Part shown: in pieces, positions 40,950 through 44,277 of the stretch
Numbering within the stretch: the first letter of the stretch is position 1
Layout of the letters: the number at the start of each line of letters is the position of its first letter
The notes under the pieces: model-generated
What the model saw: the letters and a program-made list of their open reading frames with translations, nothing else
Databases searched by the model: none
What the model was told of the DNA's origin: nothing
NCBI GenBank assembly: GCA_023269825.1
Contig: JAGDWI010000001.1
Coordinates: 120,492-184,491, forward strand
Reading direction: 5' to 3'
Source: Desulfurococcaceae archaeon
GTDB taxonomy: Archaea; Thermoproteota; Thermoprotei_A; Sulfolobales; Desulfurococcaceae
DNA: 64,000 bases
Translations under genes and position numbers: made by a program

Positions 40950-42038
40950 TTACTCCTCGATTTCCTCGTATTCCTCAGTTAGTACTGGTACATATTTCTC
41001 GGGGCATTCAACTCCTTCTGGGCAACCTTTACCGTGTCTTATAGGTTTCTCGAGCCTACTCAATAACACTACTCTGCTTGGAATAGATTCACTAAGAAGT
41101 CTATAGCCAGTGAGTTCTCCTAGTTTCCTCGCGTAATCTCTTACCTCAGGGTGAGACGGCATATTGTCTCTAGTCAATCTCCCTTTGCTGACTCCTAAGT
41201 ACATGTATGCTTTGACTTCAACGTAGTGCGGGTTTCCTTTCTCAATGATTTTTGCAAGGCTCTTCAATGCCTCCGGCTGATCATTGAATTTTTTTACAAG
41301 AGTTATTCTAAACACGACAGGGGATTTAAATGACCTAACGTAATCGATTGTTTCCTGTAATAATTCCCAAGCTCTCGGGATAAGTGGTCTATTAAAGTAA
41401 TCATAGGACTCCTTATTCCAAGCCTCAATACTTATATATAATTGCGTGGGTTCAACCTCCAGGTTCTTCAGAACATCAGGCCTCGTACCATGTGTTACGA
41501 GAAAAGTTGTTATTCCTCTTTTATGGTATTCTTCTATGAGATCACTTAAGCGTGGATATAGAAGTGGTTCTCCAGCTAAGCTTATTGCTGCGTGTTTTGG
41601 TTTGAGTGCTTCTTCAACTAATCTTTGATCTGCTCTCGGGTTGCCCTTGAATCCAGCCATTATTTGCTTATGTGTAGCAATGCTCTCTTCAACTATAACT
41701 TCAGGGTCATCTATAATAGGGATCTTTGTGTCATCCCAGTGCATACCAATGTCTTCGGGTTGAATTCTCCAGCAGTGTAGGCACCTGTTCCAACACCATG
41801 CAACAACAGGTGTCATTTGTATACATCTGTGACTCTCAATACCGTACCATAAACACTTGTAACAGAACCTGTGATGAAGTACAGCTTCCTTGGTCCAGTG
41901 GCATCTTTTAACTGCTCCTATTGTCCCTATTATGTGGTAGCCTTGTTTAGTGAGTCGCTCGTAGATCGCTCTATATACTGGCGTACTATTCCAGAATTCT
42001 TCGCGCTTCATCTTAACTGTCTTCAAGTCTATTGTCAA
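40950..42038 (-). CDS. taw1: 4-demethylwyosine synthase TYW1 (radical SAM)
   Basis: A 362-residue archaeal TYW1 that builds the tricyclic base of wyosine at position 37 of tRNA-Phe, using pyruvate and SAM. The radical SAM cluster is Cys82, Cys86 and Cys89 in WCWNRCLHCW. A second cluster site is Cys46, Cys59 and Cys72, spaced 13 and 13, exactly as in the Methanocaldococcus enzyme. ISLAGEPLLYPRL and YISIEAWNKESYDYFNRP follow as typical. Start is TTG 42038 with AAGGTG upstream. It lies divergent from the sRNA/biotin carrier unit. Confidence 0.95.
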   Translation of the reverse strand: MTIDLKTVKMKREEFWNSTPVYRAIYERLTKQGYHIIGTIGAVKRCHWTKEAVLHHRFCYKCLWYGIESHRCIQMTPVVAWCWNRCLHCWRIQPEDIGMHWDDTKIPIIDDPEVIVEESIATHKQIMAGFKGNPRADQRLVEEALKPKHAAISLAGEPLLYPRLSDLIEEYHKRGITTFLVTHGTRPDVLKNLEVEPTQLYISIEAWNKESYDYFNRPLIPRAWELLQETIDYVRSFKSPVVFRITLVKKFNDQPEALKSLAKIIEKGNPHYVEVKAYMYLGVSKGRLTRDNMPSHPEVRDYARKLGELTGYRLLSESIPSRVVLLSRLEKPIRHGKGCPEGVECPEKYVPVLTEEYEEIEE

Positions 42039-42069: not shown

Positions 42070-42106
42070 AACACTCTTATAATAGTGTTATTAGCAATGC
42101 TTATAA
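42070..42106 (+). promoter_or_regulatory. Promoter of the sRNA / biotin carrier unit with inverted repeat
   Basis: TTATAA at 42101-42106 is placed so that transcription would start near 42130, five bases before the sRNA C box. AACACT (42070-42075) and AGTGTT (42084-42089) form an inverted repeat just upstream that could bind a regulator. Confidence 0.5.
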
Positions 42107-42134
42107 CCATTCAAGGTAATTACTTATTTTTTGA

Positions 42135-42183
42135 GTGATGAACGAACCCGTGTCTGATAGATGAAGATGGTTGGCGTTGCTGA
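42135..42183 (+). ncRNA. C/D box sRNA in the leader of the biotin carrier gene
   Basis: C box GTGATGA (42135-42141, perfect), 12-nt guide ACGAACCCGTGT, D' CTGA (42154-42157, perfect), spacer TAG, C' ATGAAGA (42161-42167, 6 of 7), 12-nt guide TGGTTGGCGTTG, D CTGA (42180-42183, perfect). This is a textbook archaeal 2'-O-methylation guide for L7Ae, Nop5 and fibrillarin. The D box is immediately followed by GGTTGAT, the Shine-Dalgarno site of the gene starting at TTG 42196. The expected methylated base is the one pairing with the fifth guide base upstream of each D box; targets must be sought in rRNA and tRNA. Confidence 0.88.
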
Positions 42184-42195
42184 GGTTGATCCATT

Positions 42196-42726
42196 TTGCC
42201 GAAAATATACAGAGTTAAGACAATACTTGGAAACACTATTGAACTAGAAATGGTTGAAAAAACAAGGAACATGATCGTGTTTAAAGATATAAACACTGGT
42301 GATCTCTACAAAATTTCCATCAAGAAAGTTGATGATGGAAAATATGTTTTAAACGTTAACGGTGAAGAGCACACAGTGTACTCGTTCGAGAACGACTTAG
42401 TAGTGGATTTCACGCAACCGTTGATTAGCGAAGTACGCTCGGAAATTACCCAAGAATCGAAGAAGGAGAAGAAAGAGCATGTTAAACTACTGCAGCAAGT
42501 AGTAGAGCCAGGTGTTATTCAGTCACCGATATCGGGTAGAGTAGTTGAGGTTAAAGTTAAACCGGGAGCAGTCGTAAATGTAGGTGATACCGTTATATTA
42601 CTTGAATCCATGAAGATGATTATAGAAGTTAAATCTCATTTAGCTGGAGTGGTTGAAGAAGTATACGTTAATCAAGGTAAAGCTGTTAATAAGGGAGAAA
42701 AATTATTGAAAATAAGATCATCATAA
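42196..42726 (+). CDS. Biotin carboxyl carrier protein
   Basis: A 176-residue carrier subunit. Residues 105-176 are a biotinyl domain: SPISGRVVEVKVKPGAVVNV, the attachment motif ESMKM with biotinyl Lys140, and NQGKAVNKGEKLLKI. The usual first residue of the motif is Ala; here it is Ser. The N-terminal ~75 residues form a separate beta-rich region as in methylmalonyl-CoA/propionyl-CoA carboxylase gamma subunits, joined by a charged linker. Start is TTG 42196 behind GAGGTTGAT, which is also the tail of the sRNA. Its stop codon overlaps the convergent carboxyltransferase stop by six bases. It should serve accC (16453) and the carboxyltransferase. Confidence 0.92.
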   Translation: MPKIYRVKTILGNTIELEMVEKTRNMIVFKDINTGDLYKISIKKVDDGKYVLNVNGEEHTVYSFENDLVVDFTQPLISEVRSEITQESKKEKKEHVKLLQQVVEPGVIQSPISGRVVEVKVKPGAVVNVGDTVILLESMKMIIEVKSHLAGVVEEVYVNQGKAVNKGEKLLKIRSS

Positions 42727-44277
42727 AGGTATATTGGTGTGTTTCCTGAATGGAGGTAACTCAGCTCTCTTACCACTTAGCAATGTAAGTGCTTCGTAGA
42801 TCTTTCTCCTTGTCTCAGCTATATCGATGACGTCATCTATGTAACCTAGTTCAGCCGCTCTAAACGGGTTCGCAAAGATTTCCCTGTATTCTCTTAGTTT
42901 TTCGCGGTAGAGTGCCTCGGGATCAGTAGATTTCTCCATTTCTCTCCTATACAGTATTCTAACAGCTCCTTCGGGACCCATCACAGCTATTTCAGCTGTA
43001 GGCCAAGCGAAGTTTACGTCGCTTCCAAGCGATAAACTACCCATTGCTATGTATGCTCCTCCATATGCTTTACGCATTATTACAGTTATCTTTGGTACTG
43101 TGGCTTCAGCGTAAGCATGGAGGACTTTTGCTCCGTGTTTTATTATGCCCCCGTGCTCTTGATCAACACCTGGCATGAACCCGGGAGTATCTACAAGCGT
43201 TACTATTGGTATATTAAATGAGTCGCAGAACCTAACGAACCTCGCTATTTTATTGCTTGCATCTATATCTATAACTCCTGCGTTTACAGCTGGCTGATTT
43301 GCAACAATTCCCACTGAGTACCCGCCTATTCTTCCGAAACCTACGACAGCTGATTTAGCCCAATTAGCGTGGACTTCGAGGAAGTCGCCGTCATCTAGAA
43401 TAGATTTTACAACTTGTTTAACGTCAAATGGTTTCATGGGGTCGGTTGGGACTACTTCATATAGTTCTTCTAATTTACGATCAACTGGGTCATCTGTTGG
43501 GATATAGGGTGGATCCTCAGTGCTATTGCTCGGTAGATAGGATAATAGTTTTCTAACTATTATGAATGCTTCCTCCTCTGTTTCACTTACGAAGTGAGCT
43601 ACTCCACTAGTGGAACCATGTACATCAGCACCTCCCAGCTGATCAAACGTTACAGACACTCCTGTAGCAGCTTTAACGACCTCGGGACCTGTGATGAACA
43701 TGTAGGCTCCTTTGACTATTATAACGAAATCCATGAGAGCTGGACTATAAGCTGCTGCCCCAGCACATGGGCCCAGGATAATAGCTATTTGTGGTATTAC
43801 TCCACTAGCTTTAACATTAGCGTAGAAAATTCTGCCACAGCCATGTAACGCTGAAACACCCTCCTGTATTCTAGCTCCACCTGAATCATATAGCCCTATA
43901 ACTGGTACACCTGCTTGTATAGCTTGTTCTATTGTTTTCGCAATTTTCTCTCCGTGTGCTTCACCTATGCTTCCTCCTAGTACAGTGAAATCCTGAGCGT
44001 AAATAAACACGGTTCTACCATCTATTTTACCGTAACCTACGACTACGCCGTCGCCGAAGTACTTTTGTTTATCTAAGCCGAAGTATGTTGATCTATGGAG
44101 CCGCATCCACTGATATTCCACGAAGGAATCAGGGTCTAGTAGTTTAGTTAGCCTGTCTCTAACCCATAATTTACCTTTTTGTCTTTGTTGCTCTATTTTA
44201 TCTTTGCCTCCGCCAGTAATAGATAGTTCTCTGTATTCACGGACTTTTCTTATTAGATCATCATGAGAGCTCATCAT
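42721..44277 (-). CDS. Acyl-CoA carboxyltransferase beta subunit (PccB/MmdA type)
   Basis: A 518-residue biotin-dependent carboxyltransferase with two crotonase-like halves. The N-terminal half has YGKIDGRTVFIYAQDFTVLG, GLYDSGGARIQEGV and GPCAGAAAYSPALMDF; the C-terminal half has TLVDTPGFMPGVDQEHGGII and MRKAYGGAYIAMGS. It transfers CO2 between carboxybiotin and propionyl- or acetyl-CoA, or the reverse as a methylmalonyl-CoA decarboxylase. No membrane beta subunit (Na+ pump) is next to it. Its start overlaps the thiolase stop by four bases (ATGA), so the two are translationally coupled. Confidence 0.94.
   Translation of the reverse strand: MMSSHDDLIRKVREYRELSITGGGKDKIEQQRQKGKLWVRDRLTKLLDPDSFVEYQWMRLHRSTYFGLDKQKYFGDGVVVGYGKIDGRTVFIYAQDFTVLGGSIGEAHGEKIAKTIEQAIQAGVPVIGLYDSGGARIQEGVSALHGCGRIFYANVKASGVIPQIAIILGPCAGAAAYSPALMDFVIIVKGAYMFITGPEVVKAATGVSVTFDQLGGADVHGSTSGVAHFVSETEEEAFIIVRKLLSYLPSNSTEDPPYIPTDDPVDRKLEELYEVVPTDPMKPFDVKQVVKSILDDGDFLEVHANWAKSAVVGFGRIGGYSVGIVANQPAVNAGVIDIDASNKIARFVRFCDSFNIPIVTLVDTPGFMPGVDQEHGGIIKHGAKVLHAYAEATVPKITVIMRKAYGGAYIAMGSLSLGSDVNFAWPTAEIAVMGPEGAVRILYRREMEKSTDPEALYREKLREYREIFANPFRAAELGYIDDVIDIAETRRKIYEALTLLSGKRAELPPFRKHTNIPL

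Follow-up and report, generated by a model that had tools for sequence, protein, structure and literature searches.

Positions 42135-42183 (+ strand) of the window, by which we mean the whole 64 kb stretch of DNA that was analysed, are a genuine C/D box sRNA of textbook form lying directly upstream of bcc, the gene for a biotin carrier protein. The best explanation for this arrangement, which we regard as probable, is that bcc borrows the promoter of an old sRNA that is complementary to tRNA, so that guide RNA and mRNA would begin as a shared transcript with competing fates. The sequences contain the sRNA and its conserved relatives, a TATA-like element at a constant distance from it, an overlap between box D and a Shine-Dalgarno (SD) stretch, and downstream genes that change from one genus to another.

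Identity and conservation of the sRNA

The sequence-only reading that preceded this analysis had placed four boxes and two 12-nt guides in this interval, and direct reading of the forward strand finds each of them where it had been placed. Box C is GTGATGA (42135-42141) and is followed by the 12-nt D' guide ACGAACCCGTGT (42142-42153), box D' CTGA (42154-42157), the internal TAG loop (42158-42160), box C' ATGAAGA (42161-42167), the 12-nt D guide TGGTTGGCGTTG (42168-42179), and box D CTGA (42180-42183). The interval thus has the features of the C/D sRNA class, with C and D terminal, C' and D' internal, and a guide of ~10-12 nt before both D' and D. A strict pattern for such RNAs (RTGATGA-N10-14-CTGA-N0-6-RTGAWRA-N10-14-CTGA) has a single match on the two strands of the 64 kb window, at 42135; matches in 200 Markov-1 simulated windows average 0.00 per window, and 0.02 when the internal boxes are relaxed. 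No terminal stem around boxes C and D is apparent in the window's genome, and the window gives no match above the gathering score in Rfam release 15. Many archaeal sRNAs confined to single lineages are not represented by an Rfam model.

Conservation removes the remaining doubt about this identity. Strong copies of the sRNA were found in ~20 of 61 genomes by sequence search, and a model built from 16 sRNA copies (threshold E<1e-7) identifies homologues in 31 of the 40 family genomes, representing 13 genera, with only weak matches outside the family; several of the nine family genomes having no match are incomplete. When these 16 copies are aligned, 38 columns are unvarying. The boxes, whose loss in close relatives had been named beforehand as the observation that would count against the proposal, are retained in all 16 copies as RTGATGA (box C), TGAAGA (within box C'), and CTGA (box D), with box D' being CTGA in the window's genome and a few others and CAGA or CGGA in most. 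Positions 2-11 of the D' guide are unvarying in the alignment, as are positions 2-11 of the D guide save for one T/C change; variation is seen at position 1 in each guide and, in the D guide, also at position 12. The spacer between boxes D' and C' ranges from 5 to 50 nt in the homologues and in other genera often forms a stem; in genera g5, g15, and g9 (g1 denotes the window's own genus, the other g-numbers further genera, and G000 the window's own genome) it carries differing self-complementary arms, such as GCCTATAC...GTATAGG and GCCCCCG...GGGGGC, in line with expectation for an extended internal k-turn. Loci L305-L311, L054, L057, and L058 have such long linkers, with stems of unrelated sequence, and offer a good case for covariation analysis.

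Candidate targets of the two guides

Complementarity suggests that tRNAs fit the guides better than does rRNA. The sequence-only reading had proposed that complements of the guides be sought in both kinds of RNA. Because a search of the G000 assembly (3 contigs) yielded neither 16S nor 23S rRNA genes, rRNA targets were sought in the relatives, which carry them. (Some of these genes contain insertions; the 16S genes of G004 and G005 measure 2.0-2.6 kb.) No full or perfect guide complement is present in the 16S or 23S rRNA of these relatives. The best unvarying rRNA site is 16S CAACGCCGGG, which would pair with the D guide and is the same in all 11 16S sequences. A 23S site, CAACGCCAGG, is good in g10, g8, and G004 and was rejected on its failure in g14.

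Complements in the own genome with at most one mismatch comprise the sRNA itself and sites outside the detected tRNA genes, and exact occurrences of the D' 10-mer in six genomes are mostly the sRNA itself. The target search covered G034 completely and ~1.1 Mb of the own genome, window included; apart from the sRNA itself, the sites conserved in both are for the most part tRNAs, with some coding sequences. Positions 4-10 of the D' guide pair with the T arm in 31 of 43 tRNAs in the own genome and 32 of 47 in G034, with G51 as the predicted N+5 nucleotide; permuted D' guides match about 1 tRNA on average over these positions, and 0.4% of them reach the observed counts in both genomes. When the pairing is extended to positions 2-10, it takes in 11 and 13 tRNAs, respectively, a result reached by 0.03% of permuted guides. 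For the D guide, positions 2-11 fit nt 23-32 of 11 (own genome) and 12 (G034) tRNAs when G:U pairs are allowed, placing N+5 at G26, the junction of the D stem and the anticodon stem. This second assignment is suggestive only, since 5% of permuted D guides do as well. Between 10 and 11 tRNAs fit both guides. Among the archaea compared in one study, m2,2Gm occurs only in thermophiles (PMC7668247), and C/D guides to G26 of tRNA-Gly have been predicted in Pyrococcus (PMC7668247). The D guide ends in GGCGAA instead of GGCGTT at L312 (G019, genus g13) and L313 (G010, genus g4), with the D' guide nearly intact at both loci, perhaps implying that the D target in these two genera has changed along with the guide.

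It is possible but rather unlikely that the sRNA instead serves rRNA; its D guide would then select for methylation a guanosine of 16S CAACGCCGGG, in the helix 31 region, leaving D' as an orphan. This unvarying site pairs with positions 2-9 of the D guide, and the T8-to-C8 change seen in g9, g12, g14, and g16 strengthens the 16S pairing; position 10, however, is mismatched at the 16S site even though positions 10-11 of the guide are unvarying, and the tRNA candidates pair with both. Moreover, the near-unvarying D' guide fits the T arm strongly, and rRNA offers it nothing comparable.

Genes adjoining the sRNA

The gene bcc (42196-42726, + strand; Pfam Biotin_lipoyl, E 4.8e-15) has a TTG start codon, the position of which is supported by the proteins of relatives, which begin at the same place with LPK or MPK. 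Divergently upstream of the sRNA lies Taw1/TYW1, encoding 4-demethylwyosine synthase (40950-42038, - strand; TIGR03972, E 5e-125, over the cut-off), and an mmdA-like carboxyltransferase gene (42721-44277, - strand; Pfam Carboxyl_trans, E 1.9e-190) converges on bcc. The 3' ends of bcc and the mmdA-like gene share six bases (42721-42726).

The sequence-only reading asked for a comparison of sRNA-gene synteny, and bcc does stand behind the sRNA in eight genomes of two genera, g1 and g10 (G000, G001, G003, G004, G005, G016, G026, and G034). The gap from box D to the bcc start, always on the same strand, is 12 nt here and in G003, G004, and G005, 24 nt in G001, and 21 nt in g10 (three genomes, probably of Desulfurococcus), hence 12-24 nt overall and within a limit of about 25 nt. 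Elsewhere the synteny does not hold, and most genera with the sRNA have no bcc behind it. A sugar-phosphate nucleotidyltransferase gene follows box D at 12-27 nt in four genera (12 nt in g8; 23-27 nt in g14, g15, and g2, the start codon in g15 being uncertain), and a reductase-like gene lies 53-114 nt downstream in g6, g12, and g5 and farther away in g16. Within g1, G002 has no bcc match and keeps the sRNA, with 103 nt to the next gene. As a result, a dedicated coupling of the sRNA to the biotin gene is rejected as a general rule, and the sRNA is older than its pairing with bcc. In g8, the nucleotidyltransferase loci L051-L053 share the layout seen at bcc: the start codon is TTG, it lies 12 nt past box D, and a GAGGTG extends out of the box.

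Taw1/TYW1 adjoins the sRNA divergently in g1, g10, g6, and g8, and bcc is convergent with the mmdA-like gene in most of the relatives inspected, with different upstream neighbours of bcc in other genera. Two modules, Taw1-sRNA and bcc-mmdA, are thus adjacent in g1 and g10. A functional link between Taw1, which acts in wyosine synthesis on tRNA, and an sRNA that is probably directed to tRNA is possible. In g5, Taw1 is found on the same stretch as the sRNA.

Predicted promoter, probable leader, and ribosome binding site

A TATA box at 42101-42106 and a transcript start about five bases before box C had been claimed for this site. Using a hand-written crenarchaeal TATA matrix, we find the TATA-like element CTTATAA at 42100-42106 (+ strand; score 8.7), 35 nt 5' of box C, in agreement with that claim. 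The scores of single copies are not striking when compared with shuffles, so that the argument for a promoter is the constant position of the element across copies: of the nine from g1 and g10, eight have their best TATA-like element starting 31-36 nt 5' of box C. Taken with the usual spacing from TATA, this places the predicted transcript start at about 42129-42131, ~5 nt 5' of box C.

An SD stretch, TGAGGTTGATC (42181-42191, + strand), gives the best duplex with the 3' end of 16S rRNA (-8.1 kcal/mol), with 4 nt between it and the start codon. The sequence-only reading was correct as to its presence but not in having it merely follow box D, as the anti-SD pairing takes in the last three bases of the box. 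Every syntenic bcc has, just 5' of its start codon, an SD (-8 to -11.5 kcal/mol). This SD begins inside box D in four of the five g1 copies (G000, G003, G004, and G005), as does that in g8, with the TTG start 12 nt past the box; in G001 and g10 it stands apart from the box, beginning at least 7 nt beyond it. An SD next to or within a k-turn, a feature of 5' UTRs regulated by L7Ae, is seen at 42181-42191, whereas G001 and g10 lack the overlap with box D.

Given this SD, and given that we find no promoter-like site between the sRNA TATA element and the bcc start codon, the bcc mRNA very probably has the sRNA as its 5' leader, as the sequence-only reading had supposed. It is unlikely that the two are plain neighbours, with the sRNA made and ended alone and bcc transcribed as a nearly leaderless mRNA from a separate, unrecognised promoter in or just behind the sRNA. 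Leaderless mRNAs are common in Crenarchaeota, and the sRNA does not need bcc, since it persists in G002 and in other genera that have no bcc behind it. Nevertheless, no TATA-like site is found within the sRNA, where the best score is 1.4 in the window and below 0 in the other g1 and g10 copies, and the SD at every syntenic bcc would be superfluous for a leaderless mRNA.

A probable shared transcript with competing fates

The explanation that we favour is of an old C/D sRNA with its own promoter, the guides of which would both be complementary to conserved parts of tRNA (the T arm and the junction of the D stem and the anticodon stem). In g1 and g10, bcc lies directly behind this sRNA and would use its promoter. 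Transcription would begin just 5' of box C, with part of the transcripts continuing into bcc. The boxes would be bound by L7Ae, Nop5, and fibrillarin, and trimming would yield the mature sRNA, whereas transcripts escaping this fate would serve as bcc mRNA, translated via the SD that overlaps box D. Because of this overlap, it is unlikely that any one RNA is translated while carrying an assembled sRNP. We infer the read-through, and the occlusion of the SD, from the anatomy of the TATA element, sRNA, and SD; maturation of the sRNA, its competition with translation, and methylation of tRNA are likewise predicted from sequence, and by analogy it is plausible that L7Ae occludes the bcc ribosome site. 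The presence of an SD at each bcc start, which begins in box D in four of five g1 copies and again in g8, counts for this explanation. Against it count the gap between SD and box in G001 and g10, the unremarkable single-copy TATA scores, the marginal fit of the D guide to tRNA, the altered D guide in g4 and g13, and the want of an apparent terminal stem in the window's genome.

We think it improbable that bcc retains its sRNA leader as an adaptive switch, by which the abundance of L7Ae or sRNP would control synthesis of the biotin carrier: some bases do belong to both box D and the SD in g1 and also, ahead of a different gene, in g8, and masking of the SD by L7Ae is documented for l7ae mRNA (PMC5539422), but bcc is behind the sRNA in two genera only, g10 and G001 lack the overlap, bcc has been lost in G002 with the sRNA kept, and box D provides GA to any neighbouring SD, making an overlap possible by chance. 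We give similarly little credence to a dual tRNA guide whose box D was selected as an SD in two genera, before two unrelated genes, with RNP assembly setting downstream expression. The shared bases may reflect either regulation or thrift.

Comparison with known systems

The significance of the locus lies in a comparative series in which one guide RNA is followed through 13 genera with exchanged downstream genes, and in which a gene appears to borrow the promoter of an sRNA and even to take its ribosome site partly from one of the sRNA boxes. Competition between guide-RNA maturation and translation on one transcript becomes testable in cultured relatives, and an sRNA with both guides possibly serving tRNA bears on the ribose-methylated tRNA nucleosides of thermophiles. 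Such nucleosides include m2,2Gm26, which is seen in thermophiles (PMC5539422, PMC7668247). Known tRNA-directed C/D guides are Sac-sR10 of Sulfolobus acidocaldarius and those predicted in Pyrococcus for G26 of tRNA-Gly and tRNA-Val (PMC5539422, PMC7668247). Our sRNA resembles these in having as its candidate target a conserved tRNA region that is common to several tRNAs, G26 of tRNA-Gly being among the predictions, and differs, in a comparison by description only, in that both of its guides fit tRNA.

The 5' UTR of l7ae, in which L7Ae binds a k-turn beside the SD and lowers translation (PMC5539422), is similar in placing a k-turn element against the SD of a 5' leader. That leader, however, is a simple k-turn rather than a guide sRNA, and regulation at bcc is hypothetical. 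In the work of Tripp et al. 2017 on archaeal C/D sRNAs, as described in PMC7994747, a 5' overlap is present for 7% of the genes studied and others lie <25 nt from a neighbour; C/D sRNAs that closely precede or 5'-overlap a gene are trimmed from longer transcripts and matured by sRNP protection, and a 5' overlap lowered reporter expression (PMC7994747). The present sRNA is like those cases in its proximity to the start of a downstream gene. Unlike them, it has its own TATA-like element, apparently borrowed by the gene, its box D is part of the SD, and the downstream gene is exchanged between genera. Leader or 5'-overlapping C/D sRNAs are a published minority arrangement; what the present locus adds is a set of genera that differ in the gene behind the sRNA, two of these unrelated genes having an SD that takes in part of box D.
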